Shown here: positions 44,518 to 64,000 of the stretch, one piece after another
How positions within the stretch are numbered: the first letter of the stretch is position 1
How the letters are laid out: each line of letters begins with the position of its first letter
Assembly (NCBI GenBank): GCA_001303025.1
Contig: LJNK01000022.1
Location: 1 to 64,000 of the forward strand
Origin: Deltaproteobacteria bacterium SG8_13
GTDB lineage: Bacteria; Desulfobacterota; Desulfobacteria; Desulfobacterales; SG8-13
Reading direction: 5' to 3'
Length of the DNA: 64,000 nt
Notes under the pieces: generated by a model
What the model saw: the letters and a program-made list of their open reading frames with translations, nothing else
The model's database searches: none
Told to the model about the DNA's origin: nothing
Made by a program: the position numbers and the translations under genes

Positions 44518-44521
44518 TCCC

Positions 44522-45388
44522 ATGCAAATCCTTATCTACGGTACGATCAACAGCATTTCGCTGGCGCTGTTTGCCATCGGATTTGCCATGGTCTACGGGG
44601 TCAGCCGCCTTCCCAATTTTGCCCACGGCGCACTGTACGTGCTCAGTGGTTTTATCACATGGAGCTTTCTCAATGCCGTGGGGATGAACTACCTGTTGAG
44701 CATCGTGCTTTCAATGCTGGCTACCGGCATCATCGGCGCGCTGATCTACCAGTTCGTGCTGATACGCGTCCGGGGCATGGAAATCTCGGAGATCATGGCC
44801 TCCTATGCACTGGGCCTGGCGATTCTGGAGGGACTGCGCTGGCGGGGGTTTCGGGGAATGACCTACACCCTGCCGTCCTTTATTGAAGGCAGCACAGAGA
44901 TTGCCGGCGTATCCGTGGATTACCAGCGTTTGCTGGTGGTGGGCATCGGCGCGGCCGTAGTCGCGCTGCTGTGGCTGTTCACTCACTATACGCGCATCGG
45001 TCTGGCGCTGCGCGGCATGGCCCAGGACGAACGCGCCGCCATGATGCTGGGAATCGACTCCGACCGGATGGCGGTCGTGGCCATGGGTTTCGGATCGATG
45101 CTGGCAGCGCTGGCCGCGGTGGTGCTGCTGCCGCTGGGCAACATCGTCGTGGAGGCCGGCTACAATGTGCTGATCCTGGCCATCGCGGTCTGCATCGTGG
45201 GAGGCCTGGGCAGTTGGGTCGGAGCGGTGCTGGCCGCCTTTCTCATCGGCTTCGCCCAGATCCTTACGGTGGTATACCTGGGGGCCCACTACCAGATGGT
45301 GGTGGCCCTGCTGGCCATCATATTAACGTTGATCCTCAAACCATCCGGGCTGTTCGGCCAGCAGAAAGAACTGGAAGAAAGGGTGTGA
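44522..45388 (+). CDS. Branched-chain-type ABC permease (LivH-like)
   Basis: A 288-residue inner-membrane permease with about eight helices: ISLALFAIGFAMVYGVSRLPNFAHGALYVLSGFITWSFL at the N-terminus carries the LivH NFAHGA motif, and LALRGMAQDERAAMMLGIDSDRMAVVAMGFGSMLAALAAVVL is the EAA-type loop. It starts 5 bases after the binding-protein gene and its stop overlaps the next gene start (GTGA at 45385). Confidence 0.9.
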   Translation: MQILIYGTINSISLALFAIGFAMVYGVSRLPNFAHGALYVLSGFITWSFLNAVGMNYLLSIVLSMLATGIIGALIYQFVLIRVRGMEISEIMASYALGLAILEGLRWRGFRGMTYTLPSFIEGSTEIAGVSVDYQRLLVVGIGAAVVALLWLFTHYTRIGLALRGMAQDERAAMMLGIDSDRMAVVAMGFGSMLAALAAVVLLPLGNIVVEAGYNVLILAIAVCIVGGLGSWVGAVLAAFLIGFAQILTVVYLGAHYQMVVALLAIILTLILKPSGLFGQQKELEERV

Positions 45389-45390
45389 CC

Positions 45391-46349
45391 GTGTCAAACG
45401 GACAGCGCCGCAAGGAACGCATCGATCGGGGCATCAAGGTCCGCACCGAAGGGATCTACGCACTGTCGTCGCTGCGCGAGTTGTCATATTTGAGCGTGCC
45501 GCGCCTGGTGCTGATCATCGGCATGCTAAGCCTGCCGTTTGCAATGCCCAGCATTTACTGGCAGCGGGTAATCACCATCACCTGCATCTATGCGCTGCTG
45601 GCGCTCAGCTTCGATTTTCTGGCCCATTACGTAGGCCTGGTCTGTCTGGGAGGTGCCTTTTTCGTCGGCACCGGCGGCTACCTGGCAGCCATCGCCAACA
45701 CCACCTTCGGGCCTTGCTGCTCATGCCCTGCCTGCCTCTCAGGGGGGTCTATTTTGCCATCGTCAGCCTCATGTACCCGTTGCTGCTGGCACGGGTGATA
45801 GAAGCCCTGGACATCCTCGGCGGGACAGACGGAATCATGGGCATCGACAGCTTCCCCAACCGCTGGGTGGAGCAGTACTTTCTGATCGGGATCCTGCTGC
45901 TGCTGACGTTCGGCGTTCGCAGGCTGGTCAACACCGACCTCGGCCTGGTCCTGCGGGGCGTCAAGGACAACGACCAGGCCATCCGTGCCTCGGGAATGAG
46001 TGTTACATTCTACAAATCCATTGCGGTGTTTATCGCCGCGGTGATCGGATGCCTGAGCGGCGCCTACCTGGTGCACATCTACATGTGGTCCGGAATCTCC
46101 CAGTTTGCCCTCGATTTTTCCATTCTGCCGATCGCCGCCACGGTGATCGGTGGCGGCGGAACGCTGGTGGGACCGGTGCTGGGCTGTCTGCTGCTGGTTC
46201 CCATATCGGAGCTGTTGAGAGACTTCGGAACGCTGCGCATTGTGTTCTATGCCCTCATACTGGTGGCATTTATTATTTTTCGCAGCGAAGGGTTGATGGT
46301 GTACGGACAGCGCAAATATCACCAGTTCGAAAGGTGGACCGAAGTATGA
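45391..46349 (+). pseudogene. Branched-chain-type ABC permease (LivM-like), internal deletion and frameshift
   Basis: The gene is split between two frames. Frame 1 (from GTG 45391 or 45385) gives GIYALSSLRELSYLSVPRLVL through FVGTGGYLAAIANTTFG. After about 45709 it degenerates (PCCSCPACLSGG). The frame starting near 45714 gives LLLMPCLPLRGVYFAIVSLMYPLLLARVIEALDILGGTDGIMGI and runs to 46349. Relative to typical LivM, the stretch joining the NTTFG helix to the LPCLPLRG segment is missing (roughly 15-20 codons), with a net change not divisible by three. Flanking genes are intact. It may be a genuine inactivating deletion, or a sequencing or assembly error. Confidence 0.85.
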
Positions 46350-47134
46350 GCGGCGAACCGATTATCCGGGTGCAGGAGGTCACCAAGGCCTTCGGCGGCA
46401 TCATCGCTTTGAGCAAAGTGAGTTTCGATGTCCACGAGGGCGAAATTCTGGGTATCATCGGACCGAACGGCTCCGGCAAGACAACGATCGTCAACTGCAT
46501 CACGGGTTTCATCAGGAAAACCTCCGGGCGCGTGTTCTACCGCGGCCGGGATATCTCCGACAAGCCACCCCACAAGATCGCCGACATGGGCATCACCCGA
46601 ACGTTTCAGATCATGCGTCCATATTACACTCTGCCGGCCTATAAAAACCTGGTGATCCCGTTGTTTTCTCCCCGCGCCAAACGCACCGGCGGGTGGCGCG
46701 GCGGAGGACGCCGGGGAGATCGCAACACCGTCGGAATCGACATCCTGGAAGAAATCGGATTTGAGCGGGATTCGTACGTTCCATACAAGACCGCCTCGAC
46801 TCTCCCCACCGGATACCTGAAACGACTGGAACTGGCCCGCTGCCTGGCGCTGCGGCCGGAGGTGGTCATCTGCGATGAAATCTTCTCCGGCCTCAGTATG
46901 AGTGAAATCGCCAGCATGGTGCCGTTGATCGAACGGTTGCAGATGGACGGGATCACCCTGATCATGATCGAGCACCGGCTCAGAGAGCTCTTCCGGGTGT
47001 CCAACCGGGTGATTGTGCTTAATTTCGGGGAAAAACTGATCGAAGGCAATCCGCAGGAGGTCATGGCCGACCCGAAAGTCAGAGAGGCCTATTTCGGGTC
47101 TCAGAAGGTCGAGGAGGTGATGAACCATGCTTGA
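46346..47134 (+). CDS. Branched-chain-type ABC transporter ATP-binding protein (LivG-like)
   Basis: A 262-residue ATPase: IIRVQEVTKAFGGIIALSKVSFDVHEGEILGIIGPNGSGKTTIVNCITG carries Walker A, TRTFQIMRPYYTLPAYKNLVIPL is the Q-loop region, and VVICDEIFSGLSMSE is the Walker B region (with an unusual Ile-Phe-Ser in place of Pro-Ala/Leu-Gly). The signature loop is replaced by TLPTGYLKRLELARCLAL, which lacks the usual LSGGQ sequence. ATG 46346 overlaps the livM-like stop (ATGA); the longer track ORF from 45653 is a fusion of shadow sequence. Confidence 0.88.
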   Translation: MSGEPIIRVQEVTKAFGGIIALSKVSFDVHEGEILGIIGPNGSGKTTIVNCITGFIRKTSGRVFYRGRDISDKPPHKIADMGITRTFQIMRPYYTLPAYKNLVIPLFSPRAKRTGGWRGGGRRGDRNTVGIDILEEIGFERDSYVPYKTASTLPTGYLKRLELARCLALRPEVVICDEIFSGLSMSEIASMVPLIERLQMDGITLIMIEHRLRELFRVSNRVIVLNFGEKLIEGNPQEVMADPKVREAYFGSQKVEEVMNHA

Positions 47135-47888
47135 GGCTTCCGACCTGATGGTGTTTTACGAAAACATGCTGGCCCTGAACAACATCAACATCAGATGTGC
47201 GCAGGGCCAGATCGTCGGCGTTTTCGGCGCCAACAGCGCCGGTAAGTCGACACTGATGTACACCCTGTCGGGTATCATGCGGGACATCCAAAAAAAGGAG
47301 CAGATGGCCGGCGGAGAGCGGATCACGATCCTGGGGGACGTGCTCTACCAGGGGGAGAACATCTCCCGGCTCAAGCCCAGCCAGCGGGCTCGCAAGGGCA
47401 TCGTGCTCTGCCCGGAACGGCGACGCATCTTCAGTGAAAGCAGCGTGCTGGAGAACCTGAAAATCGGCGGATACCTGGCATCGCCTGCCCAGGCGCGCAA
47501 AACCCTGCGGTATGTCTTCGATATCTTCCCGGCCCTGGAAAAGCTGAAAAAGCGGGTCGGTGGATTTTTGAGCGGCGGAGAACAGCAGATGCTGGCCATC
47601 GGTCGTGCCATCATGGCCCAGCCGAAACTGCTGCTGCTCGATGAACCGCTGATGGGATTGAGCCCGCTGATGCAGGCGATGTTGATGCGTGCAACCCGCG
47701 AAATCCGCGACCGGATGGACATTTCGATCATTGTCACCGAACAGTATGCCCGGCCGGTTTTCCCGATCGTGGACTACGCCTTTATCCTTGAAAACGGAGC
47801 GGCAGTGATGGAGGGAACCCGCGAAGAACTGATGGACAATCCGGATGTCCGCTCCGCATACTTCGGCGTCGAGGAGTCACACGCGTAA
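47127..47888 (+). CDS. Branched-chain-type ABC transporter ATP-binding protein (LivF-like)
   Basis: A 253-residue ATPase with VFGANSAGKSTLMYTLSGI (Walker A), KGIVLCPERRRIFSESSVLENLKIGGY (the LivF PERRRIF region), FLSGGEQQMLAIGRAIMAQPKLLLLDEPLMGLSP (signature and Walker B). It overlaps the LivG-like gene by 8 bases and ends in a TAATG junction with the acyl-CoA ligase. With its intact LSGGE signature it complements the degenerate signature of its partner. Confidence 0.92.
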   Translation: MLEASDLMVFYENMLALNNINIRCAQGQIVGVFGANSAGKSTLMYTLSGIMRDIQKKEQMAGGERITILGDVLYQGENISRLKPSQRARKGIVLCPERRRIFSESSVLENLKIGGYLASPAQARKTLRYVFDIFPALEKLKKRVGGFLSGGEQQMLAIGRAIMAQPKLLLLDEPLMGLSPLMQAMLMRATREIRDRMDISIIVTEQYARPVFPIVDYAFILENGAAVMEGTREELMDNPDVRSAYFGVEESHA

Positions 47889-49540
47889 TGGGCGCAGACG
47901 GCAACAACCAGACAGGGGAATTGACCTTCACCCGCTTTGACCGGATGTGCGAAACCTTCCCGGATCGCACAGCCGTGGTGTACCTCGGCGAGCGCTTCTC
48001 CTACCGTCGGCTGCGCGATCTCAGTGAGCGCTTCGCAGGGGCACTGGCGTCCCTGGGCTTGCAAAAGGGCGACCGGGTGATGATTTACATTCCCAACTGC
48101 ATTCAGTGGGTCATCGCCTTTCTCGGTATCCAGAAACTGGGGGCCGTAATCGTACCGGTTGCCCCCATCTACACCTCGCATGAACTGGAATACCTGATCC
48201 GCGATTGCGGTGCACAGACCATCATCTGCATGGATACCAACTTCGGTTACGTCAAAGAGGTCATGGAAAGCACCGGGCTGCGGAAGGTGATTGTCACGAA
48301 CCTGGTGGATCTGCTGCCGCTTTGGAAGCGCTGGTTGGGCGTGCTGTTCGACAAGATTCCAACGGGAAAGGTTGACCGCGATCGGCAGATTCATCGTTTC
48401 AAAACGCTTCTGAATCACCCGCCGCTGACAAAACCGGTGGAGATCGATCCCATGGAGGACCTGTCTTACATGCTCTATACCGGTGGAACCACCGGATTCC
48501 CCAAAGGGGTGCCCGGCAACCATTCGGGCATGACATCCTATGTAAATGACGTCACCGACGACGTTGCCGGAAAGCACGTCCTGGAAGGCGAGGATGTGTA
48601 CATCGCCGTCAATCCGCTGTTTCACATCATGGCCCTGGGCCTGTTCATGTCGATCGGTTTGAACAAGGGCAACATGACAATACTGATGCCCACACCCCAG
48701 GTGGATGCCATTTTAGACAGCATCGAGCGATATGGTGTCCGGTGGTTGCTGGGAGTACCGGCCTTGTACCGGATGATCCTCGACAATGATCGCCTCGATC
48801 GTTACCGTCTCAACTCCCTGACGTATTGCTTCTGCGGTGGAGACGTGCTGCCGGCGGAAATATACAATCGCTGGGAGAAGCATTTCGGTATTCCCATTTA
48901 CCAGGTCTACGGCTCCACAGAAGTCGGACACGTCTGCTACAGTCGCATCGACAAACAGCCCAAACCCGGCACCATCGGCCTGCCGCTGGGAAGCCGTGAA
49001 TGCGTAATCGTGGATCCGGCCACTCTCGATCCGGTGGGGCCGGGGGAAAGCGGTGAACTGCTGGTTTCCTCACCGTACACCGTAAAGGGGTACTGGAACA
49101 AGCCGGAGGAGACAGCCAGGACCTGCGTGGAGATCGACGGCAAGGTGTATTGCCGCATGGGCGACTACGTTCGCAAAGATGAAGACGGCGAACTCTACTA
49201 TGTGGAGCGCAGCGCAGATTTGATCAAGCACAAGGGGTTTCGGGTCTCAGCCTCTGAGGTCGAGGCCGTTCTGCAGGACCATCCGACCGTCATCGGTGCG
49301 TGCGTGGTGGGCATCCCCGACGAGCGGGTGGGGGAACGGATCAAAGCCATCGTGGTACTAAAAGAAGACGCCCGGGGCGTGGGGGGAGCGGATCTGATCC
49401 GGTGGTGCAGTCAACACCTGGCTGCCTACAAGGTCCCCAGTTATATCGAGTTTAGAGACATGCTGCCCAAGTCGAAGGTCGGCAAGTTGCTGCGCCGTGA
49501 AATCCGCGATGAAGAACGCCGGCGGATCGCAAAAGAGTAA
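47888..49540 (+). CDS. AMP-forming acyl-CoA synthetase
   Basis: A 550-residue ANL-family ligase that activates a carboxylic acid with ATP and CoA. P-loop: MLYTGGTTGFPKGVPGNHSGM (about residue 194). Later come VYGSTEVGHVCYSRID (adenine-binding A5), VYCRMGDYVRKDEDGELYYVERSADLIKHKGFRVSASEVEAVL (A7-A8) and the catalytic Lys near the end (MLPKSKVGKLLRRE). Its ATG overlaps the livF-like stop by one base, so it is translated with the transporter and probably traps the imported acid as its CoA ester. The substrate chain is not determinable from sequence. Confidence 0.9.
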   Translation: MGADGNNQTGELTFTRFDRMCETFPDRTAVVYLGERFSYRRLRDLSERFAGALASLGLQKGDRVMIYIPNCIQWVIAFLGIQKLGAVIVPVAPIYTSHELEYLIRDCGAQTIICMDTNFGYVKEVMESTGLRKVIVTNLVDLLPLWKRWLGVLFDKIPTGKVDRDRQIHRFKTLLNHPPLTKPVEIDPMEDLSYMLYTGGTTGFPKGVPGNHSGMTSYVNDVTDDVAGKHVLEGEDVYIAVNPLFHIMALGLFMSIGLNKGNMTILMPTPQVDAILDSIERYGVRWLLGVPALYRMILDNDRLDRYRLNSLTYCFCGGDVLPAEIYNRWEKHFGIPIYQVYGSTEVGHVCYSRIDKQPKPGTIGLPLGSRECVIVDPATLDPVGPGESGELLVSSPYTVKGYWNKPEETARTCVEIDGKVYCRMGDYVRKDEDGELYYVERSADLIKHKGFRVSASEVEAVLQDHPTVIGACVVGIPDERVGERIKAIVVLKEDARGVGGADLIRWCSQHLAAYKVPSYIEFRDMLPKSKVGKLLRREIRDEERRRIAKE

Positions 49541-51326: not shown

Positions 51327-52838
51327 ATGTTTCATGAAAACCCGGCAAAATCGGCTCCGGCGGCCGATTCGGACGTCACGGCCGAAGAGACCCTTGACCC
51401 CGAAAACTGGGATGCCATGCGACAGCTCGGGCACGAAATGGTCGATGACATCATGACATACCTGCAGACCGTTCGCAGACGGCCGGTCTGGCAGCCCATT
51501 CCGGATCGGATCCGTGATGAACTGAGCCGTCCCCTGCCGATCGAGCCCCAGGGTGCGCAGCAAACCTATCAGGACTTTCGCGATATCGTGTTGCCGCATC
51601 CGATGGGCAACATCCATCCGCGATTCTGGGGCTGGGTAATCGGCACCGGCACCCCCTTCGGGGCTTTGGCGGAAATGCTGGCCGCGGCAATGAATCCGAA
51701 CCTGGGGGGTGCCGAACACGTTCCGAACCTGGTGGAAATACAGGTGATCGATTGGTGCAAGCAGATGCTCGGTTATGATCCCGACGCCAGCGGTCTGCTG
51801 GTCAGCGGCGGCTCCATGGCCAACCTGGTCGGCCTGACTGTCGCCCGCAACACCAACGCCGAATTTGACGTGCGCAGCAGCGGGCTGCGGGCCGCTCCCC
51901 GACCGATGACCCTATACGGATCGGTGGAGATGCACAGCTCTATCCAGAAGGCGGTGGAACTGCTGGGCCTGGGAAGTCAGGCGCTGGTAAAAATTCCGGT
52001 GGACGACCGGTACCGTATCGAACTGCCGGCGCTGGAGGCGGCAGTGGCCGAAGATCGTGCAGCCGGCCGGTATCCGTTTTGTGTTGTCGGAAATGCCGGA
52101 ACCGTCAATACCGGCGCATTTGACAATTTGAACCGGCTGGCCGAGTTCGCCCACCGGGAAAAGATGTGGTTTCATGTCGACGGCGCCTTCGGCGCCCTGG
52201 CAGCCGTATCAAAGGATCTGCAGTACCTGGTGGAAGGAATGGGGAAAGCCGACTCCATCGCCTTTGATCTTCACAAGTGGATGTACATGCCCATCGAAGT
52301 CGGCTGTGTTCTGGTGCGCAGCGAGGCGGCCCACCGCCGGGCATTTTCACTAACGCCCGAATATCTGGCCCATGGCGGAGACCGCGGGCTGATCGCCGGT
52401 TCCCGCTGGTTCAGTGACTACGGTATTCAGCTTTCCCGCGGATTTCGGGCGCTGAAGGTGTGGATGTCCCTCAAGGAGCATGGAATCGAACGATACGGAC
52501 GCATTATCCGCCAGAATACCCGCCAGGCCCGATATTTGGCCGAACTGGTCGATAAGGCACCGGAACTGCAGCGTTTGGCTCCGGTGCCGTTGAATATCGT
52601 CTGTTTTCGCTACATCGCCGACGGATTGGACGAAGAAGCACTGAACCGGCTCAACCAGGAGATCCTGATTCAACTGCACGAAAAAGGTGTCGCTGCCCCC
52701 TCCTACACGACCCTCAACGGCAAGTATGCGATTCGGGCCGCCATCGTCAACCACCGCAGCCGCAGGGAAGATTTCGAACTGCTGGTCAGCGAAACCATCC
52801 GGCTGGGCGCGGCACTGGCCGGCCAGCAGGTCTCATGA
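51327..52838 (+). CDS. Group II PLP-dependent decarboxylase
   Basis: A 503-residue fold-type I decarboxylase of the aromatic-L-amino-acid/glutamate group. HPRFWGWVIGTGTPFGALAEMLAAAMN (about residue 94) is the substrate region. GLLVSGGSMANLVGLTVARN is the phosphate-binding stretch, WFHVDGAFGALAAVS holds the cofactor Asp, and ADSIAFDLHKWMYMPIEVGCVLVR (about residue 310) carries the PLP Lys in HKW. AGGAG precedes the ATG at a good distance. The amine product is unknown; the DDC-like sequence favours an aromatic or similar amino acid. No transporter partner adjoins. Confidence 0.85.
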   Translation: MFHENPAKSAPAADSDVTAEETLDPENWDAMRQLGHEMVDDIMTYLQTVRRRPVWQPIPDRIRDELSRPLPIEPQGAQQTYQDFRDIVLPHPMGNIHPRFWGWVIGTGTPFGALAEMLAAAMNPNLGGAEHVPNLVEIQVIDWCKQMLGYDPDASGLLVSGGSMANLVGLTVARNTNAEFDVRSSGLRAAPRPMTLYGSVEMHSSIQKAVELLGLGSQALVKIPVDDRYRIELPALEAAVAEDRAAGRYPFCVVGNAGTVNTGAFDNLNRLAEFAHREKMWFHVDGAFGALAAVSKDLQYLVEGMGKADSIAFDLHKWMYMPIEVGCVLVRSEAAHRRAFSLTPEYLAHGGDRGLIAGSRWFSDYGIQLSRGFRALKVWMSLKEHGIERYGRIIRQNTRQARYLAELVDKAPELQRLAPVPLNIVCFRYIADGLDEEALNRLNQEILIQLHEKGVAAPSYTTLNGKYAIRAAIVNHRSRREDFELLVSETIRLGAALAGQQVS

Positions 52839-53082: not shown

Positions 53083-53866
53083 TGGTCCCTCCTTTCGGTG
53101 TATGCCTGTTCGCTTTTCCTGTAAATCGGCAGCAGGTTTTACAGCCGCATGTTACCCCGGCTTTTGGAACCGAGCACTACTGGAAATTGCCGTTGCAATC
53201 GCTTGCCGAAAGCGATCGGAGCTGCACACCCTTGCCCGCTGACCAGCCGGATGGGTACCGCGTCACCCCGTTCAGCAAGGGCCGTCCGATCCGCTATCGC
53301 CTGCAGCGCCAGGGAAAATGCGGATATCGCTCCGCCCGCAGGCCACAGACGGCCCATATTGGAATGGATCATAAAACAAACGACACGGGGATGCACTTCG
53401 AGAAGCAAGGGGACGAACAACCGACGCAGATGCGAAAGTAACCCACGGCAGTATCCGTGGTAGATTCAAAGAGGGCGAAACATCGGCCAGGCAGTAGAAC
53501 CAATCAGATCCAATCGATGATCAAGAAACGCTCGGTTGTGCAGCATGTAACCACCCTGCCACCTGTCAACCTGATTGCGAATCGTCACTTCTAACAGCCA
53601 AACAGCGTTCACCTCCTTTCCCGATCCGCACGTTTCTTATTACCATGAATGGAAACGGTTATCAAGCACCGCGAGGCGCCGGCCGGCGCCTTGATTTCCA
53701 ACAGCGCTCATCCGGGCAGGCTCGAGGTGTGCGCGCACAGCCGCGACAGCCGTTTTTCGCAAACGCGCCGGCTGGGCCCACCACAGGCAGGAGGCTGCAG
53801 GGTCGTCGCACGGCAGCGGGCCCGGTTCGCAATCCATCTGAAGCGGACGACGGCCATCTTCCGGCT
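53083..53866. other. Long intergenic region between the HEAT-like and ferredoxin genes
   Basis: 784 bases with no gene in the ORF track that I can support. The plus-strand ORFs 53645..54325 and 53649..54098 are shadows of the ferredoxin gene. Found inside: a candidate 48-residue leftward ORF (53466-53612); a hairpin ATCGCTT/AAGCGAT at 53198-53216; a stem CCACGG/CCGTGG near 53444-53461; and a perfect 16-base palindrome GGCGCCGGCCGGCGCC at 53675-53690. No clear terminator with a T tract follows the ferredoxin gene. Confidence 0.5.
53466..53612 (-). CDS. Candidate 48-residue small ORF with an extended Shine-Dalgarno sequence
   Basis: Below the track's length limit. The minus-strand frame reads VNAVWLLEVTIRNQVDRWQG, then GYMLHNRAFLDHRLDLIGST and AWPMFRPL. 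It is preceded by GAAAGGAGGTGA, a 12-base match to the 16S rRNA 3' end, but the GTG at 53612 overlaps that sequence, and the codon at ideal spacing is GTT. So either an unusual start is used or the gene is degraded. The residue mix looks protein-like (amphipathic helix, Trp/Tyr/His). No family is recognised. Confidence 0.35.
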   Translation of the reverse strand: MNAVWLLEVTIRNQVDRWQGGYMLHNRAFLDHRLDLIGSTAWPMFRPL

Positions 53867-54334
53867 TCAGTGGATTCTGGTGCGTGCCGTCCCGGACGAT
53901 ATCTGTTTTGCCACCGAACGGCTGTCACCCCAGTGGATGCAGCCGGTGGGGCAGACACTGCTGCAAGCCGGAGGACGGTTTTCCTTCAGGCGCTCGATGC
54001 AAAGATCGCATTTAATGGCCACCTCTTGCTTTTCATCGTATTGCATGGCGCCGAACGGACATGCCTCCAGGCACTCCTTGCAGCCGATGCACTGCTGACG
54101 ATCGATGAGCACGACCCCGCTTTCGTCCCTGGATATCGCATTCTCCGGGCAAGCCTTTTTGCAGGGGGCATCGGGGCAATGGTGGCAGTATACCGGATAA
54201 AAATCAGGGGCTTGCTCGATGACCTGCACCAGTCGAGGCCCGACACCCAGCCCGTGCTCCTGTTTGCAGGCCACTTCACAGGAATGACAGCCCATGCACT
54301 CTTTTTTGAAAAACATCAACGTTAGCTTTGCCAT
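53867..54334 (-). CDS. Four-cluster ferredoxin-type electron-transfer subunit
   Basis: A 155-residue iron-sulfur protein of the DmsB/PhsB/NrfC type. Cys motifs: CMGCHSCEVACKQEHG, then CHHCPDAPCKKACPENAI, CIGCKECLEACPFGAM and CDLCIERLKENRPPACSSVCP, enough for four [4Fe-4S] clusters. It would carry electrons from the Mo enzyme to a membrane or soluble acceptor. Its start overlaps the Mo-enzyme stop by 13 bases and has AGGAGG upstream. No membrane anchor gene follows, so its electron acceptor is not apparent. Confidence 0.92.
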   Translation of the reverse strand: MAKLTLMFFKKECMGCHSCEVACKQEHGLGVGPRLVQVIEQAPDFYPVYCHHCPDAPCKKACPENAISRDESGVVLIDRQQCIGCKECLEACPFGAMQYDEKQEVAIKCDLCIERLKENRPPACSSVCPTGCIHWGDSRSVAKQISSGTARTRIH

Positions 54335-56430
54335 GTGGAAACCTCCTGATTTTCACTGGGCGATATGCTGCAGAGGCAAACCCGCAAGTTGGTTGCCGCC
54401 ATCAGCGGATCCAGGCTCTGGGGGGAATTGTCGGTTAGAATGTTGATGTTGGAAATGTCCCACCCGTGGCCTTCCTCCTTGATCTCCGGATACCACCAGC
54501 CGTGTTCGGCGACAATCACCCGGGGATCGATGCCCGCATTGAGCTTGGCCCGCAACTTCACGCAACCCCTCGGAGAAGAGATGTCCACCCACTGGCCGCT
54601 CTCGATGCCGTGCTTTTCGGCGGTCTGCGGATGGATTTCGACGATGGGGTCCGGGCGGATCTCCCTCAGCCAAGGGATCATTCGATTGGCGGAGTGAAAA
54701 AAGGTGGGGGTTCGCAACCCGGCGTTCAGGATGTACGGAAACTGTTCGGCAATCTCCGGAGTTGATACCGGGCTCTCCGGCATTTCGGTATACTTCGGAA
54801 GGGGGTCGTGGCCCCATTTCTCCAGCACGGTGGAGTAAAGCTCCACTTTGCCGGTGGGAGTCGAAAAGCCTTTTTGCCGATACTTGTGATACGTCATTTC
54901 GCCTTTCAGGTGGCCGACCTGTTTGAACTCCTCCCAGGTCAACCCGGATGGTTCCAGAAGATAATCGAGCGCATCTTCGACAGTATCCCACCACGGCTGA
55001 CTCATTTTTTTTCCCAGTTCCATGAAAATCTTGTGGTCCTGCCAGCACTCACCGATCTCCACCGCTTTTTGCCTGGCCAACACGAATCCGTGCCGTTTCC
55101 AATTGTCGGCCACGTGGTTTTGTTCCAGCCATGTGCCGGCCGGCAGGAAGATATCCGCCAGATCCGCAGTCGGCGTCATGAAAAAGTCGATAACGGCCAA
55201 AAACTCGAGTTTCTTCAAGGCTGCATAAGCTTCACGCGCATTGGCCCGGGTGATTACCGGATTGGTCCCGCAGAGCAACCCCGCTTTCAGCGGATAGGGT
55301 TTTTCCGTCAAGATGGCATCCCAGGCCGCCTTGGGACTGATCAGAGCCACCCGGGAGGCCAGCTTGTACTGATCACCGCCAAGGCGTTTGCTGCGCTGTT
55401 CGGCGCTCAAGTCTTTGTGGCGGGAAAATTCGGAGACCGTGCGGACCTTCGGCGGCACGCTGAAAATATTGCCCCCGGGGATGTCCAGATTTCCGGCGGC
55501 CGCCATCAGCCCGACCAGGGTGCGGGTGCAATCCGTACAGTTGAGGGTTTGCTCGGTGGGCACCCCCCATTGAAGCGCTGCCGGCTTGATGCGGGCATAC
55601 ATTCTGGCCGCCCTGCGGATCAGATCCTGTTTCACCCAGGTGATGGCCTCTACTTTGTCCAGCGGATATTGTTTGACCCGCTCCGCAAATGCCTCCCAGC
55701 CGTGCACGTACCGGTCGACAAATTCCTTGTCGTAAAGGTCCTCTTCGATGATCACGTTTAAAAAGCCCATGGCCAGCGCTCCGTCGGTACCCGGTCGCAA
55801 CTGAAGCCACAGGTCCGCCTTTTTGGCGAGAAACCCCTTGCGCGGATCGATGACGATCAGCTTGGCGCCTTTCTTGTAGGCCTGCCAAAATTCTACGCCC
55901 TTGTGTTCGTCCGGGTTTGTCCACTGCGGATTGCAGGCCCACATCACGATGCACCGCGGATCGCCGTGCCAGTCGGTCACCGGCAGGTTGCCGCAGGTCA
56001 CCAGCGTGGCCCCGATCCGCGATATGTAGCACATGTGCCCGGCGGTCAACACATTGGGAGTTCCCAGCAGGTTGGCAAACCGGTAGAGGTGGCTTTCGTA
56101 GTCCCGACCGGTGCCCTGTCCGATGACGATCGACTCGGGCCCGTTGGTTTCGATCACCTCCCGGAATTTTGCCGCGATCGTCTCCAGGGCCTCCTCCCAG
56201 CTGATCCGACCCCATCCCTTACCGGTTTTTTTCATCGGATAGAGGATGCGATCGGGATGGTAGGCAAGCTGGGTGACCGCCAAACCCTTGCTGCAAAGCG
56301 TACCGTGGCTGATCGGAGACGCGGGGTCTCCTTCCACTTTGACCACCTTGCCGTCTCTGACATGGGCGATGACACCGCATCCCCCGTGACAATTGCGACA
56401 GGCGGTTCGGATCTGTTGCTCCTGACCCAT
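54322..56430 (-). CDS. Molybdopterin oxidoreductase, DMSO reductase family, catalytic subunit
   Basis: A 702-residue bis-MGD enzyme. The N-terminal [4Fe-4S] motif is CRNCHGGCGVIAHV with LCSKG. LTAGHMCYISRIGATL (about residue 130) gives a Cys as the likely Mo/W ligand. LIVIDPRKGFLAKKADLWLQLRPGTDGALAMGFLNVIIEE and a C-terminal molydopterin-binding domain (TPTGKVELYS, then GLRTPTFFHSANR) complete the fold. There is no Tat signal, so it is probably cytosolic. The Asp next to the second Fe-S Cys of acetylene hydratase is His here, which argues against that enzyme. In an operon with a CoA ligase and a ferredoxin, it resembles phenylacetyl-CoA:acceptor oxidoreductase (Pad) logic. AAAGGAGGTG precedes the ATG. 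Confidence 0.9.
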   Translation of the reverse strand: MGQEQQIRTACRNCHGGCGVIAHVRDGKVVKVEGDPASPISHGTLCSKGLAVTQLAYHPDRILYPMKKTGKGWGRISWEEALETIAAKFREVIETNGPESIVIGQGTGRDYESHLYRFANLLGTPNVLTAGHMCYISRIGATLVTCGNLPVTDWHGDPRCIVMWACNPQWTNPDEHKGVEFWQAYKKGAKLIVIDPRKGFLAKKADLWLQLRPGTDGALAMGFLNVIIEEDLYDKEFVDRYVHGWEAFAERVKQYPLDKVEAITWVKQDLIRRAARMYARIKPAALQWGVPTEQTLNCTDCTRTLVGLMAAAGNLDIPGGNIFSVPPKVRTVSEFSRHKDLSAEQRSKRLGGDQYKLASRVALISPKAAWDAILTEKPYPLKAGLLCGTNPVITRANAREAYAALKKLEFLAVIDFFMTPTADLADIFLPAGTWLEQNHVADNWKRHGFVLARQKAVEIGECWQDHKIFMELGKKMSQPWWDTVEDALDYLLEPSGLTWEEFKQVGHLKGEMTYHKYRQKGFSTPTGKVELYSTVLEKWGHDPLPKYTEMPESPVSTPEIAEQFPYILNAGLRTPTFFHSANRMIPWLREIRPDPIVEIHPQTAEKHGIESGQWVDISSPRGCVKLRAKLNAGIDPRVIVAEHGWWYPEIKEEGHGWDISNINILTDNSPQSLDPLMAATNLRVCLCSISPSENQEVSTWQS

Positions 56431-56442
56431 TGAACACCTCCT

Positions 56443-56634
56443 TTAGGAAAATTCGATATCAGCTATGTCCGAAATCCCGAATTTGAGTACATATACGGTG
56501 TGCAGGATATCGCGGGCGTTCTTCTCGACGGCCGGCAGCCCCTTTCCCAATTGCTGCAGTTCCTGCGCCCGGCTTTCAATTTGCGTGATTTTCTCTGCCA
56601 TCCGGCGTAAAAGGTCACGATCGCTGTTTTCCAT
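56443..56634 (-). CDS. 63-residue helical protein in the Mo-enzyme operon
   Basis: MENSDRDLLRRMAEKITQIESRAQELQQLGKGLPAVEKNARDILHTVYVLKF then an acidic end. Mostly coiled-coil helix with no Cys, no signal peptide and no membrane segment. It sits 6 bases after the CoA ligase and 12 before the Mo enzyme, so it is surely cotranslated. It could be a small accessory or stability factor for either neighbour. No family is recognised. Confidence 0.7.
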   Translation of the reverse strand: MENSDRDLLRRMAEKITQIESRAQELQQLGKGLPAVEKNARDILHTVYVLKFGISDIADIEFS

Positions 56635-56640
56635 TTTCCC

Positions 56641-57966
56641 CTATCCCCTCTGGATACCCCTCATATCCTTGTATCTTTTCGCTTTTAGCTTATACCGCGG
56701 CAGTGTACCCGGTCTTACCGGCAGAAGACGAAAGGTCAGATTGGTCTTGATTTTCAGCCGTTCGGACAAAATGACCGACAGCTCCTGACCGGCCGTCTGT
56801 TCCATCTCCTCCAGTGGTTCATATATCAGGCTGATCTCGTCGAGAGTGCCCTTTCTCTCCACGCTGATTTCATACTCTCCGATTTGGGGAAATTCGCCCC
56901 GCAACAACTCCTCGACGGCAACCGGTGTAAACAGAACCCCGCGGATCTTGGTGAGATGATCCATCCTGCCGGCCACCTCCTCGATTTTCTGTGACGTTCG
57001 CCCGCAGCCGCAGCCGTTAGAACCTTTGCGGACGATATCCTTGGTGTTGAACCGGATCATCGGAAATGAACGCCTTCCCAGTGCCGAAACAACGGCCACT
57101 GCCAACTCGCCTTGCGCAACGTCACGCTGCTGGTTTTCCATGTCCAGCATTTCCACCAGAAAGAACGGCTCCATGATGTGCAGTCCCTGCCGCTGACCGC
57201 ACATGGCTGCCCAGGCACAGGGCTCGGTGCCGCCGATGTGATCATAAACTTCTGCACCCCACAAGGTCTCGAGTTTATGGCGCGTGGCTGGAGGAAGGGG
57301 CTCACCGGCGCACACCATCCGCCGAATGCCCATATCGGGAGGATGAATGCCCATGTTCTTTGCGGCTTCGGCCAGGTGCACTCCGTAGGTAGGGGTGTTA
57401 AGCAGGGCCGTGGCCCGCACTTCCTGCATCTTGTTCAAGCGCCCGATCGTGTCGAGAGCTCCGCCGGGGATGACCATACAGCCAAGTTTCTCTGCCGCGT
57501 AATGGCCTTCCCAGAAAGCCACATAGACGTTGTAGCCAAAGGGGATAAAGACCCGATCGACTTCTCTGAAGCCGGCCATCCAAAGGATGTGGCACCAGAC
57601 TTCCACCCGCCACTGCCAGCTTTCCCTGCTTTCCGGCACGTAGACGGGAGTGCCGGTCGTACCGGATGTCTGCCGAAAATCGCTGACCTCCTCGGGCGAA
57701 ACGCCGAGCAGCTCTCCGAACAAAAACGGCTCTTTACCAACCTGGGCCATTCGCAGATCTTCCTTTTCCACCATGGGCAGCTGTCGGACATCTGCCATCG
57801 AACGGATGTCTTCCGGCTCGATATGCCGGTATTTTTCCCGGTAGAAAACCGTATGCTGCTTGGCGTAGGCAACCATCCGGCGAAGGTTTTTCAGTTGCAC
57901 CTGCCGAATCTTCTCCGGGGGCAGGGTTTCCACAAATGGATTCCAGTAAGTCGATGCTTGGCTCAT
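56641..57966 (-). CDS. Phenylacetate-CoA ligase family protein (PaaK-like)
   Basis: A 441-residue AMP-forming ligase. The P-loop DFRQTSGTTGTPVYVPES (about residue 93) and later EPCAWAAMCGQRQGLHIMEPFFLVE, FNTKDIVRKG and RMDHLTKIRGVLFTPVAVEELL are PaaK hallmarks. It activates phenylacetate or another aryl/short carboxylic acid as its CoA thioester. It lies between the IclR regulator (22 bases) and the 63-residue protein (6 bases). Substrate identity is inferred from family, not proved. Confidence 0.88.
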   Translation of the reverse strand: MSQASTYWNPFVETLPPEKIRQVQLKNLRRMVAYAKQHTVFYREKYRHIEPEDIRSMADVRQLPMVEKEDLRMAQVGKEPFLFGELLGVSPEEVSDFRQTSGTTGTPVYVPESRESWQWRVEVWCHILWMAGFREVDRVFIPFGYNVYVAFWEGHYAAEKLGCMVIPGGALDTIGRLNKMQEVRATALLNTPTYGVHLAEAAKNMGIHPPDMGIRRMVCAGEPLPPATRHKLETLWGAEVYDHIGGTEPCAWAAMCGQRQGLHIMEPFFLVEMLDMENQQRDVAQGELAVAVVSALGRRSFPMIRFNTKDIVRKGSNGCGCGRTSQKIEEVAGRMDHLTKIRGVLFTPVAVEELLRGEFPQIGEYEISVERKGTLDEISLIYEPLEEMEQTAGQELSVILSERLKIKTNLTFRLLPVRPGTLPRYKLKAKRYKDMRGIQRG

Positions 57967-57988
57967 GGCAACCTGTCCTTGTTAGCGG

Positions 57989-58780
57989 TCATGCGCATAC
58001 GGCAGCCCCCGGCCCACCGTTTAGGGCGAAACGATGGTTGATCTGCTCCCCAACCTCTCTCAGATACCGGGCAACGGCGGGAAGCTGCTGCTCGGTTAAC
58101 TGTCTTTTAAGACCCACTGCCCAGACAGCGGCTTGCAGTTTTTCCTTGCGGGTCTTCAACGGAACGGCGTAGGCGATGATACCTTCGATATATTCTTCCC
58201 GGTCGATAGCCAGTCCGTTTTCACGAACCAGCAACACCTCCTTTTTATATCGGGATTTGTTCACGCACGAGCTGGCGGTATATTTCTTCAGCCGATTGCC
58301 ATTTAGAACCTGCTCGAGCTCTTCGTCGGAAAGCTGCGCCAGCAGGGCTTTGCCGCCGGCACCGGCCAGCAGCGGTATCCGCATGCCAATTTCTGAGGAA
58401 ATTTTGATGTCGTAAGCCGTATCGACTTTGTCGATGATCACGGCATCCATTCCGGAACGGATGCCCAAAAAGGCGGAAAGGGTCGTTTTTCTGTTGATCG
58501 CCACCAGATGGGGATGTACGGTTTGAATCAGTGCAGAACCTTCACCGGCGGCAATCCCCAGTGAATACAGACGATGGCCGAATGTAAACTTGTCATCGAG
58601 TCCTTTTTCCAAAACCTGCAGGTCGGCAAGGGTGTGAAGGATTTGAAAAACGGTGCTTTTGTTGAGCTGAAGCTGCCGCGATATCTCGCTCACCCCAAGC
58701 GGCGCGGTGGATCGGCTGAACAGATCGAGGATGGCAAAACACTTGTCTATGGCAGGAACCCGTTTGAATTCGCTACTCAT
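57989..58780 (-). CDS. IclR-family transcriptional regulator
   Basis: A 263-residue regulator. The N-terminal winged helix is AIDKCFAILDLFSRSTAPLGVSEISRQLQLNKSTVFQILHTLADLQVL (about residues 9-58). The effector domain has GMRIPLLAGAGGKALLAQLSDEELEQVL (about residue 130) and VLLVRENGLAIDREEYIEGIIAYAVPL, both IclR signatures. IclR proteins usually sense aromatic or short organic acids and control the adjacent catabolic operon. It heads the five-gene operon; a perfect palindrome in its promoter suggests it represses itself and the genes below. Confidence 0.92.
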   Translation of the reverse strand: MSSEFKRVPAIDKCFAILDLFSRSTAPLGVSEISRQLQLNKSTVFQILHTLADLQVLEKGLDDKFTFGHRLYSLGIAAGEGSALIQTVHPHLVAINRKTTLSAFLGIRSGMDAVIIDKVDTAYDIKISSEIGMRIPLLAGAGGKALLAQLSDEELEQVLNGNRLKKYTASSCVNKSRYKKEVLLVRENGLAIDREEYIEGIIAYAVPLKTRKEKLQAAVWAVGLKRQLTEQQLPAVARYLREVGEQINHRFALNGGPGAAVCA

Positions 58781-58812
58781 CTGAGGGCCCTCATTTGTTC
58801 TCTATATAGAAC

Positions 58813-58836
58813 GATCGTTTTTTATAATAAACGATC
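58813..58836. promoter_or_regulatory. Palindromic operator candidate for the IclR regulator
   Basis: GATCGTTT (58813-58820) and AAACGATC (58829-58836) are perfect inverted repeats with an 8-base AT centre. The site covers the -10 of the iclR promoter completely, the position of an autorepressor operator. Confidence 0.6.
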
Positions 58837-58852
58837 CATTTTCCCTTGTCAA
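58824..58852 (-). promoter_or_regulatory. Strong sigma-70 promoter of the iclR-paaK-Mo operon
   Basis: Minus-strand TTGACA (58852-58847), 17-base spacer, TATTAT (58829-58824), about 45 bases before the iclR ATG. A perfect -35 with a 5-of-6 -10. Confidence 0.7.
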
Positions 58853-59149
58853 CACCTTCACCCGCTTTTTCACAAGCCTTTTTTGTTCCGCTGCCGGGCT
58901 GTCTGCAGGAAAGTTGCAGCCCGTGAACCGGCATCACGGCACCCGTTTCCTGGACATGGCCCGGCCGTTCAATTCGCCATGGATCTGCCATTGCAGACAT
59001 GAATCCTGCAGTTGCCCTGCAATGGCCAGCCGCTGATTTGCTCGACGGATCTGATTGTGATAGGCTGTCGCATCCCCGCGGCCGTCCCGTCGCCGCATCC
59101 GCGGCCGGCGGTCTGCATGTATTTGACCCACCCCGACTTTGGAGGCGTG

Positions 59150-60911: not shown

Positions 60912-61823
60912 TTGGCCAGCGGAATGATTTTTGATTGTCGTCGATTTGCCACCCACGACGGGCCGGGGATTCGAACTACGGTTTTCCTCAAAGGCTGCCC
61001 CTTTGCCTGCCGATGGTGCCACAACCCGGAAAACTGGGACACGGTTCCGTCCGTGGTGTACCGGCCGGAAAGATGTATCGGCTGCAGCCGCTGTGTCGAA
61101 AACTGCCCGGAAGCGGCGCTGGCATTGACTGCCGCAGGGGTGGTACGCGACCCTTCGCGTTGCCGGGATTGTGGCGACTGCGTTCACAGCTGCCCGGCAG
61201 AAGCCCGGGAAAGCACGGGCTGGATGACCTCGGCGGCAGATCTGCTGGCAATCATCGAAAAAGATATCCCGTTTTACGACCAGTCCGGAGGCGGTGTTAC
61301 CTTCTCCGGCGGAGAACCGCTTGTTCAATCCGATTTTCTGATCGAGCTGCTGCAAGGCTGCCGGCAACGAGAAATTCACCGGGCGGTGGACACCACCGGT
61401 TTCGCACCGGCTCAAACGGTTGCCGAGGTGAGCCGACATACCGATCTTTTCCTCTACGACCTGAAAATGATGGATCCGGAAAACCACCGGCGATTCACCG
61501 GCCACTCCAACCACCTGGTTCTAGAAAACCTGAAGATGCTGTCGTCTTCCACTGCGAAGATCATCATCCGAATACCCCTGATTCCCGGCATAAACGACGA
61601 TGCCGACAACATGCAACGAACTGCGGATTTCGTCACCGGCCTTCCCCGCCGCCACCCGGTGGAGCTGCTACCGTTTCATCGCTCCGCCGTTCACAAATAC
61701 GGCAAGCTGGGGTTGTCCTACCCGGCCGAAGGGTTGCTGCCGCCCGGTCCGGAGCAACTTTCGGCAGCAGCCGTCTGTCTGCAAAAAGCCGGATTGAGCG
61801 TTCACACGGGAGGTGAATCATGA
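60912..61823 (+). CDS. Glycyl radical enzyme activating protein
   Basis: A radical-SAM activase that makes the glycyl radical on the downstream enzyme. The cluster motif GCPFACRWCHNPENW (C-x3-C-x2-C) is near residue 29. A double ferredoxin insert follows (CIGCSRCVENCP, about residue 54; CRDCGDCVHSCP, about residue 79), then GGGVTFSGGEPLVQ (GGEP motif). TTG at 60912 is used as start because AAGGAGG lies 9-10 bases upstream, whereas ATG 60924 is too far. Its stop overlaps the enzyme start (ATGA). The partner is therefore the HypD-like enzyme. Confidence 0.93.
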   Translation: MASGMIFDCRRFATHDGPGIRTTVFLKGCPFACRWCHNPENWDTVPSVVYRPERCIGCSRCVENCPEAALALTAAGVVRDPSRCRDCGDCVHSCPAEARESTGWMTSAADLLAIIEKDIPFYDQSGGGVTFSGGEPLVQSDFLIELLQGCRQREIHRAVDTTGFAPAQTVAEVSRHTDLFLYDLKMMDPENHRRFTGHSNHLVLENLKMLSSSTAKIIIRIPLIPGINDDADNMQRTADFVTGLPRRHPVELLPFHRSAVHKYGKLGLSYPAEGLLPPGPEQLSAAAVCLQKAGLSVHTGGES

Positions 61824-64000
61824 ATGCAAGAATCAAACGGCTTCGTCGCAGTTCCATGGAGGCGCAGCCGTCTATCTCCATCGAACGGGCGTTGCTGGTC
61901 ACCGAATTCTACAAGGAACATCTCGGCAAATTTTCGACCCCTGTTCTGCGGGCACTGACTTTTGCGCACCTGTGCGACAACAAGAGCATATGGATCGGCC
62001 AGGACGAGCTGATCGTCGGCGAACGGGGCCCGCACCCCAAATCCGTTCCCACATTTCCGGAACTCACCTGCCATTCGGCAGAGGATCTGCGGATCCTCGA
62101 CAGCCGCGCAATGACCCGCTACCGGATCGAAGAGGCGGATATTCAAACCTATGCCGATCGGGTCATTCCTTTCTGGCAGGGTCGCAACATGCGTGATCGG
62201 TTGTTCGAACAGGTGCCGGAAAGCTGGAAAAAGGCATACGCGGCCGGCCTGTTTACCGAGTTCATGGAGCAGCGGGCCCCCGGTCACACCGCCCTGGACG
62301 GAACCATCTACGGGCAGGGAATGCAGGATTTCAAGCTCGAGATAGCGGGGCAATTGCAGACCCTGGACTATCACAGCGATCCGCATGCAGCAGACCGCGC
62401 CGAGCAGCTGAAGGCCATGGACATCGCCTGCAGCGCAGCCATCCGATTTGCCCGGCGGCATGCACAGCTGGCCCGGCAGATGGCGGAAAGTGAGTCCGAC
62501 CCAGGCAGACGAAAGGAACTGGCGCGGATCGCCGCCAACTGCCACCGGGTGCCTGCCCATGCCCCGCGGGATTTCTGGGAGGCATTGCAGATGTACTGGT
62601 TTGTCCACCTGGGCACCATCACCGAGCTCAACGGCTGGGATGCCATGACGCCCGGGCACCTCGATCAGCACCTTCACCCTTTTTACCAAGCCGAGCTGGC
62701 CGCCGGCACCCTGGCGCGCGATTCCGCCAAAGAGCTGCTCGCCTGTTTCTGGATCAAGGTCAACAACCATCCGGCACCGCCGAAAGTGGGCGTGACAGCG
62801 AAAGAAAGCGGCACCTACAACGACTTTACCAACGTCAATCTCGGGGGGCTGACCCGCGACGGCACCGATGCGGTCAACGAGGTTTCCTACCTGATCCTGG
62901 AGGTGCTCGACGAGCTGCACATCCTGCAGCCCCAGGCCAGCGTGCACATCAGCACCAAGACGCCCGACCGTTTTGTGAAAGCCGCCTGCCGGGTCATCCG
63001 CAACGGGTTCGGCTACCCCTCGGTCTTCAATGCCGACGCCACCGTCATGGAGCAGGTCCGGGCGGGCAAATCCGTGGAGGACGCCCGGGAGGGCGGGTGC
63101 AGCGGATGCATCGAAACCGGCGCGTTCGGCAAGGAGGCCTACATACTGACCGGATACCTAAACGTGCCCAAAATTCTCGAACTGGCCCTCAACGACGGCC
63201 GCGATCCGGCCGGCGGCGAGCAGATCGGTCCCGCAACCGGTGACCCGGCGCACTTCACCGGATTTGAGGATCTCTATCGTGCATTCGAAGAGCAGCTGCG
63301 CGCAATCGTCGATCTGAAGATTCGGGTGAACAACATCATCGAACGCATGTACGCCGCTAACACGCCGGCGCCGTTTCTATCGGTTGTCATCGGCGACTGC
63401 ATCGCCAAGGGGCGAGACTATTACGACGGCGGGCCGCGATACAACACCAACTATATCCAGTGCTGCGGCATCGGAACCGTCACCGACAGCCTGTCGGCCA
63501 TTCGCACCCATGTCTACGAAAACCGGGCGGTTGACATGCAGCGACTGGTTGCATCCCTTGCCGGCAACTTTGAAGGGGAGGAGGCCCTGCGACTGCAGCT
63601 GAAAAACCGCACGCCCTGCTTCGGAAACGACGACGACCGTGCCGACAGCATCATGCAGCGGGTCTACAACTCACTGTTGGAGGCCATCGACGGCCGGCCG
63701 AACACCAAAGGCGGCCGGTATCACCTCAACATGCTGTCGACCACCTGCCACGTGTACTTCGGCCGTATGCTGGGAGCTTCGGCCAACGGCCGCATGGCCG
63801 GACTGCCCATATCCGACGGGACCTCCCCCTCCCATGGCGCGGACCGCAACGGACCGACAGCGGTGATCAAGTCGCTGAGCAAGATGGATCAGCTGAAATC
63901 CGGCGGGACCCTGCTGAACCAGCGCTTTCTGCCGGCCGCGCTGAAAGGGGAAAGCGACGTGGACAAACTGGCGCAACTGATCCGCACCTATTTCCGTTTA
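61820..64000 (+). CDS. hypD: Glycyl radical enzyme, trans-4-hydroxy-L-proline dehydratase (HypD)-like, cut by window edge
   Basis: HypD dehydrates trans-4-hydroxy-L-proline to pyrroline-5-carboxylate, which P5C reductase turns into proline. I read 727 codons from ATG 61820 (GGAGGT upstream) with no stop. GGCSGCIETGAFGKEAYILTGY carries the thiyl Cys430 and Glu432. Substrate-site residues recalled for C. difficile HypD (F152, H160, D278, S334, D339, Y450) all have identical counterparts at a constant offset of four: F148, H156, D274, S330, D335, Y446. EFMEQRAPGHT and NLGG also fit. The C-terminal glycyl-radical loop lies outside the window. The name rests on recalled numbering, not a database search. 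Confidence 0.82.
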   Translation, partial: MNARIKRLRRSSMEAQPSISIERALLVTEFYKEHLGKFSTPVLRALTFAHLCDNKSIWIGQDELIVGERGPHPKSVPTFPELTCHSAEDLRILDSRAMTRYRIEEADIQTYADRVIPFWQGRNMRDRLFEQVPESWKKAYAAGLFTEFMEQRAPGHTALDGTIYGQGMQDFKLEIAGQLQTLDYHSDPHAADRAEQLKAMDIACSAAIRFARRHAQLARQMAESESDPGRRKELARIAANCHRVPAHAPRDFWEALQMYWFVHLGTITELNGWDAMTPGHLDQHLHPFYQAELAAGTLARDSAKELLACFWIKVNNHPAPPKVGVTAKESGTYNDFTNVNLGGLTRDGTDAVNEVSYLILEVLDELHILQPQASVHISTKTPDRFVKAACRVIRNGFGYPSVFNADATVMEQVRAGKSVEDAREGGCSGCIETGAFGKEAYILTGYLNVPKILELALNDGRDPAGGEQIGPATGDPAHFTGFEDLYRAFEEQLRAIVDLKIRVNNIIERMYAANTPAPFLSVVIGDCIAKGRDYYDGGPRYNTNYIQCCGIGTVTDSLSAIRTHVYENRAVDMQRLVASLAGNFEGEEALRLQLKNRTPCFGNDDDRADSIMQRVYNSLLEAIDGRPNTKGGRYHLNMLSTTCHVYFGRMLGASANGRMAGLPISDGTSPSHGADRNGPTAVIKSLSKMDQLKSGGTLLNQRFLPAALKGESDVDKLAQLIRTYFRL

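Follow-up and report, generated by a model that had tools for sequence, protein, structure and literature searches.

An acetylene hydratase-like molybdenum or tungsten enzyme in a conserved CoA ligase operon of sediment anaerobes

Gene organisation of the operon

The stretch of DNA analysed here (the window) comprises positions 1 to 64,000 of contig LJNK01000022.1 from Deltaproteobacteria bacterium SG8_13, and carries on its minus strand a run of five genes encoding an IclR-family regulator, a PaaK-like coenzyme A (CoA) ligase, a protein of 63 amino acids (aa), a 702-aa molybdenum or tungsten (Mo/W) enzyme of the bis-molybdopterin guanine dinucleotide (bis-MGD) type and a 155-aa iron-sulfur (FeS) protein with four [4Fe-4S] clusters. 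The intergenic gaps, in gene order, are 22, 6, 12 and -13 nucleotides. The original prediction, made from the sequence alone, had described five leftward genes with these gaps under one strong promoter; the open reading frames match this description exactly, and the promoter is the sole sigma70-type site of this quality within 53500-59100. Pfam and NCBIfam searches confirmed the family of four of the five products (IclR, AMP-binding, MopB and 4Fe-4S dicluster). The features are as follows.

57989..58780, minus strand: IclR-family regulator, 263 aa (PF01614 and PF09339; best NCBIfam model PcaR/PcaU/PobR at 122 bits, under its cut-off)
56641..57966, minus strand: PaaK-like AMP-forming acyl-CoA ligase, 441 aa (PF00501 and PF14535)
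56443..56634, minus strand: 63-aa two-helix protein, conserved with the PaaK-type ligase
54322..56430, minus strand: Mo/W-bisMGD catalytic subunit of the acetylene hydratase-like clade, 702 aa (C11, C14, C18 and C46 for a [4Fe-4S] cluster, His15, K48, predicted metal ligand C134)
53867..54334, minus strand: FeS electron-transfer subunit, 155 aa (four 4-Cys motifs, 17 Cys)
58824..58852, minus strand: sigma70-type promoter TTGACA-17-TATTAT (11 of 12 consensus matches)
58797..58832, no strand assigned: putative IclR operator between promoter and start codon, two tandem 16-bp near-palindromes with 20 bp spacing
58817-58832, no strand assigned: operator half overlapping the -10 element, a 16-bp near-palindrome
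58797-58812, no strand assigned: operator half, a 16-bp near-palindrome with the sequence GTTCTCTATATAGAAC

The putative operator contains the motif GTTCTNTATANAGAAC, of which no second copy was found in the same genome, even when one mismatch was allowed; the regulon scan therefore gave no further clue to the substrate. The exact motif is present in 11 other fetched loci, which represent about eight distinct places as some loci duplicate one contig, and which include L014, L016, L020, L026, L027, L028 and the sister-clade locus L131. The loci sharing it are divergent, and wherever its position was checked the motif lies immediately 5' of the IclR gene. As it is single-copy in its own genome and just 5' of IclR elsewhere, the regulator probably controls this operon alone, by autoregulation. 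A TTGACA element was also seen at a similar spot 5' of IclR in most of the orthologous loci inspected.

Conservation in other genomes

A scan of a genome collection retrieved 55 loci with relatives, most of which are 64-82% identical across the full Mo/W protein (about 50 orthologues). Their hosts are Desulfobacterota including Syntrophaceae, Chloroflexota (Anaerolineae and Dehalococcoidia) and Lokiarchaeota. In nearly all loci that reach far enough, the FeS gene lies 3' of the Mo/W gene, and no membrane-anchor subunit was seen in the operon or in the orthologous neighbourhoods listed, in agreement with the soluble, anchor-less enzyme that had been proposed. About a dozen distinct loci encode a fused FeS subunit of about 633 aa, whose ferredoxin halves flank an inserted GltD-like pyridine-nucleotide flavoprotein. 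This fusion argues for a redox reaction carried out by a soluble system.

The same-strand gene just 5' of the Mo/W module was a PaaK-type ligase in 22 of 51 non-redundant core loci, a FadD-type ligase in 8 and neither in 21, and the ligase type switches only twice on the tree. Importers of the tripartite ATP-independent periplasmic (TRAP) type or the branched-chain ATP-binding cassette (ABC) type and regulators of the IclR or GntR families recur near the core loci. Ligase, importers and regulators together point to the catabolism of an acid. Since many genomes repeat both the order of the genes and the operator, the grouping exceeds what chance would give, and the operon is a genuine, widely conserved and uncharacterised one from sediment anaerobes.

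An additional gene for a 125-160-aa Lcl_C protein (PF07603) is found directly 3' of, or between, the Mo/W and FeS genes in L028 (13779-14192) and 19 other loci; it is absent from the operon in the window.

Descent of the Mo/W enzyme

The Pfam domains PF00384, PF01568 and PF04879 (Molybdopterin, Molydop_binding and Fe4S4) all score above gathering in the Mo/W enzyme, which places it in the dimethyl sulfoxide (DMSO) reductase (MopB) superfamily. Its nearest characterised protein is the acetylene hydratase (AH; Ahy) of Pelobacter acetylenicus, PDB 2e7z, which has the same size, is about 36% identical over the full length and scores 414 bits; polysulfide reductase (Psr) reaches 224 bits and FdhF 204. 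The AlphaFold model, with a mean predicted local distance difference test (pLDDT) of 92, likewise gave 2e7z as top fold match (E 8.8e-69, template modelling score 0.92).

We considered and rejected the possibility that the enzyme belongs with the polysulfide/thiosulfate reductases or the formate dehydrogenases and has its neighbours by coincidence; this is very improbable. The closest NCBIfam models are indeed Fdh-alpha and PhsA, but both fall far under their cut-offs and the AH score is nearly double; in approximately unbiased (AU) tests, a single clade of the AH-like set and Psr was rejected (p 0.015). A position of the catalytic subunit inside the thiosulfate and polysulfide reductases, named beforehand as an outcome that would tell against the original prediction, was thus not obtained. 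Neither AH-like plus PadB (p 0.2) nor AH-like plus AH (p 0.395) was rejected, with long branches in play.

Active site

In the alignment with AH, whose residue numbers are taken to differ by 3 from the positions in the aligned chain, C134 corresponds to the metal ligand Cys141 and C11, C14, C18 and C46 to the cluster cysteines, and Lys48 is kept. AH Asp13 is replaced by His15 in every row of the core, sister and DHGGC clades. The cysteine ligand and the histidine in place of the AH aspartate had both been foreseen; both are present, and they are invariant across the core clade. Among the six residues that we take, from the AH structure paper, to line the acetylene cavity, four are replaced or missing (Ile14 to Gly, Ile142 to Tyr, Trp179 to Pro, Ile113 in a gap), whereas Trp293 is retained and Trp472 apparently so, by a hand count on the pairwise alignment to 2e7z. 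Because Asp13 has become His15 and most of the cavity residues are replaced or missing, the enzyme, as judged from its sequence, is AH-like in ancestry and scaffold, whereas its active site is not that of an acetylene hydratase.

The same comparison bears on a non-redox reaction, in which water or a hydroxyl would be added to, or moved on, an acyl-CoA that is unsaturated or aromatic, in the manner of AH or pyrogallol transhydroxylase. AH being the nearest characterised protein, with the Cys ligand, the [4Fe-4S] cysteines, Lys48 and Trp293 conserved, speaks for such a reaction. The catalytic aspartate is nevertheless histidine throughout and the cavity mostly lost. Moreover, AH works as a single-subunit non-redox hydratase, whereas the enzyme here has a CoA ligase and a dedicated four-cluster FeS subunit, which is conserved, flavoprotein-fused in about a dozen loci and without an obvious role in a reaction of this kind. 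We therefore regard a non-redox reaction as quite improbable.

Two observations concern the wider family. A subclade consisting of L079, L140, L141, L144 and relatives has the motif CxRxDHGGC, in which Asp takes the place of Cys12, the second of the AH cluster cysteines; this implies an unusual [4Fe-4S] ligation. A gene on the Rhodococcus opacus DSM 44186 plasmid NZ_CP082159.1 (L160, 5989-8349), annotated merely as a molybdopterin-dependent oxidoreductase, keeps AH Asp13, Ile14, Ile113 and Trp179, clusters with AH at 100/100 and has transposases nearby; its product is a candidate aerobic acetylene hydratase.

Relation to phenylacetyl-CoA oxidation (Pad) enzymes

The original prediction had seen in this operon a soluble relative of the Pad system. 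PadBCD similarly has Mo and FeS subunits that come after a CoA ligase, in the anaerobic breakdown of aromatics. PadB references were chosen by synteny: genome G172, in which a PadI gene over the NCBIfam cut-off is followed by the gene for an 860-aa Mo protein and by an NrfD-like one, with PadEFGHI genes adjoining, plus relatives in G177 and G160, each adjoining FeS and NrfD-like genes (NrfD-like as judged by eye). These proteins are longer (848-900 aa), are about 28% identical to the Mo/W enzyme over partial length, belong to a system with a membrane anchor and, in G172, carry the cluster motif CKMCLHSC, unlike the motif here. On the tree the three syntenic PadBs stand with Psr, apart from the AH-like side (98/99), and a single clade of core enzymes and PadB was rejected (AU p 0.027). 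No PadB match at E<=1e-40 and no PadI match at E<=1e-60 was found in the genome itself, which is 91.5% complete. Kinship with Pad was accordingly not borne out, and membership in this family is rejected.

A Pad-like reaction arisen independently of PadB, with arylacetyl-CoA, indoleacetyl-CoA or a similar thioester oxidised at the alpha carbon to a 2-oxoacid, is a separate matter. The PaaK-like ligase and the soluble FeS chain would suit it, and distant AH-like relatives lie near 2-oxoacid:ferredoxin-oxidoreductase-like genes on contig C108 of the same genome (37% identical) and in L082 of genome G122 (39-44%). The separate clade and the missing PadB and PadI argue against it. In the Desulfobacterota sample, G237 was the only core-clade genome with a strong PadI match as well, and no 2-oxoacid oxidoreductase stood out when the core loci were read. 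Pad passes its electrons to quinones, whereas the link here looks pyridine-nucleotide-like. On balance we hold a Pad-like oxidation to be unlikely. What stands of the predicted arylacetyl-CoA or acyl-CoA oxidation system is the activation of an acid beside a soluble Mo enzyme and a likely role in aromatic catabolism; oxidation is a possible direction and not the best-supported one.

The C108 gene (L079, 9299-11374) is a second AH-like Mo gene, directly 5' of the gene pair resembling 2-oxoacid:ferredoxin oxidoreductase (by eye), which is followed by a TAXI-type TRAP transporter. This locus could be the actual arylacetate-type system of the genome.

The CoA ligase and the 63-residue protein

The ligase shares the domains and length of the PaaK phenylacetate-CoA ligase family, and its closest PDB relatives are 4r1l (199 bits), 6hdw, a 2-hydroxyisobutyryl-CoA synthetase, as second best, and 2y27. 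It nonetheless misses the cut-off of the curated PaaK equivalog TIGR02155 (208 against 646 bits), and the family also includes the 2-hydroxyisobutyryl-CoA synthetase.

Searches of the 63-aa protein against Pfam, NCBIfam and the PDB returned nothing meaningful. An AlphaFold2 model gave a two-helix hairpin (pLDDT 90), so the helical component that had been described holds; it is not unique, as had been thought, being a conserved family of which 20 sequences were aligned, with N39 and L50 invariant. The protein is present in 21 of the 22 PaaK-type loci, in none of the 8 with a FadD-type ligase and in 1 of the 21 others. This distribution ties it to the PaaK-type ligase and not to the Mo/W enzyme, and it is probably a partner of the ligase.

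Catabolic context and proposed reaction

Several loci place the core module among genes of anaerobic aromatic degradation. In the Dehalococcoidia locus L048, bzdN and bzdO of bzd-type benzoyl-CoA reductase, together with Oah and Had genes, all scoring over their cut-offs, lie beside the core together with a CoA-dehydratase-activase gene, and L047 has gene clusters as in L048. A BzdQ-like gene is near the core in the Lokiarchaeota locus L036 and a Had-like gene in L038, both under cut-off. In L055, a relative of 54% identity, a trio resembling 4-hydroxybenzoyl-CoA reductase follows directly 3' (best model TIGR03194, 915 bits, cut-off 995). Together these neighbours suggest an aromatic context. 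Among the Desulfobacterota genomes sampled, Oah is encoded in 12 of the 16 that have the core enzyme and in 50 of the 231 that lack it (Fisher p 2e-5, uncorrected for phylogeny); the genome of the window encodes Oah and has no match to the alpha subunit of 4-hydroxybenzoyl-CoA reductase at 1e-60. URO-D/corrinoid methyltransferase genes adjoin the core in four loci (L029, L037, L041 and L063), L041 having in addition a corrinoid protein and a pterin-binding methyltransferase; about 0.2 such loci would be expected (Poisson P 6e-5), an expectation that uses rough copy numbers from 10 genomes.

A redox conversion of a CoA-activated non-aromatic acid has also to be weighed. Ligases of the PaaK family, like the FadD-like ones, are promiscuous; the 2-hydroxyisobutyryl-CoA synthetase ranks second among the PDB matches of the ligase here, and TRAP and ABC importers are unspecific evidence. 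The recurrent linkage to benzoyl-CoA pathway genes and the co-occurrence with Oah tell against this explanation, which we think has perhaps a minor chance of being correct.

In our view, the module likely carries out a soluble redox step whose substrate is an aromatic acid activated with CoA. The nature of this step may be approached through the catechol dehydroxylases (Dadh, Cldh and relatives), which are the closest to AH among bis-MGD enzymes and have homologues in Desulfobacula, Geobacter and Thauera, including aromatic-degrading Desulfobacterota (PMC7028382); the likeness is drawn here via the literature only, and a search for characterised dehydroxylases on plasmids gave remote relatives only. 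Searches of open-licence papers for a DMSO-reductase-type aryl-CoA dehydroxylase or for protocatechuyl-CoA dehydroxylation turned up no account of the clade, and papers on anaerobic degradation of benzene and polycyclic aromatic hydrocarbons mention AH in their reference lists only. Dehydroxylation appears the most likely of the reactions because catechol dehydroxylases are close to AH, the electron partner is of the pyridine-nucleotide type, O-demethylation would lie upstream and benzoyl-CoA reduction downstream, each link being read from the neighbouring genes.

In the resulting scheme, the IclR regulator would bind the tandem palindromes over its own promoter, as the conserved DNA suggests. 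The PaaK-like ligase, probably with its 63-residue partner, would convert an imported carboxylic acid into its CoA thioester, on which the soluble bis-MGD enzyme, with its Cys ligand and with His for Asp13, would perform a redox step. The 4x[4Fe-4S] subunit would relay electrons to or from NAD(P)H or ferredoxin, and not the quinone pool. In a catechol-dehydroxylase-like manner, a phenolic hydroxyl may be reductively removed from a (poly)hydroxyaryl-CoA, with the product entering the benzoyl-CoA pathway; O-demethylation upstream would supply phenols and catechols, and benzoyl-CoA reduction would follow downstream. Gene content, the operon, its conservation, the clade, the operator motif, the switching of partners and the neighbouring genes are direct observations; the CoA thioester as substrate, its aromatic nature and the reductive direction are what we infer from them.

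A number of points weigh against this scheme. The characterised catechol dehydroxylases use free catechols and belong to gut Actinobacteria. No O-demethylase, Hcr or Bcr gene adjoins the operon in the window, and 21 of the 51 core loci are without a ligase just 5', some because contigs are truncated, though L035, L051 and L054 are not. PaaK-family ligases activate aliphatic acids too, as 6hdw illustrates. The sole solved relative found for the neighbouring methyltransferase is CdmB, which acts on chloromethane, so the methyl donor need not be a methoxyarene, and the methyltransferase count is only as firm as its rough copy numbers. The co-occurrence with Oah is confounded by phylogeny. Finally, the Mo/W enzyme could act before or after CoA activation; the thioester-first order is the one we infer.

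Reductive dehydroxylation in particular is accordingly put forward tentatively. The best explanation of the locus as a whole, to which we attach somewhat less than even confidence, is a self-contained, locally regulated catabolic module in which an AH-clade enzyme would dehydroxylate a (poly)hydroxyaryl-CoA. More speculative, and on present evidence rather unlikely, is the further proposal of a distinct class of CoA-thioester-dependent aryl dehydroxylase in the AH-like Mo/W clade, common to sulfate reducers, syntrophs, Chloroflexota and Lokiarchaeota and having the 63-aa protein as a dedicated partner of its ligase. Such a class would provide the dehydroxylation step ahead of benzoyl-CoA reductase in anaerobes that lack 4-hydroxybenzoyl-CoA reductase.

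Surrounding genes in the window

The region 43243-49540, a few genes from the operon, holds the genes of a branched-chain-type ABC transporter and, after them, that of a second AMP-binding ligase of 550 aa (47888-49540); these are a possible importer and activator. At 51327-52838 lies a pyridoxal phosphate-dependent decarboxylase (PF00282, 503 aa), for which the best NCBIfam model, 2,4-diaminobutyrate decarboxylase, is far under its cut-off. A glycyl-radical activase and enzyme are encoded at 60912-61823 and 61820-64000, the latter continuing into L156 (1321-3681); the enzyme is a trans-4-hydroxy-L-proline dehydratase (1191 bits, NCBIfam cut-off 1100).

Biological significance

The module is little changed across anoxic-sediment bacteria and Asgard archaea, and because it recurs in these organisms it probably serves a common step of carbon turnover there. 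Its generic annotation label would be 'molybdopterin oxidoreductase', and metagenome surveys that use an AH orthology group may miscount such genes as acetylene hydratase, despite the loss of Asp13 and of most of the cavity. If aryl-CoA dehydroxylation is indeed its function, the module would give lignin-like aromatics that bear methoxyl and hydroxyl groups a link to the benzoyl-CoA pathway.

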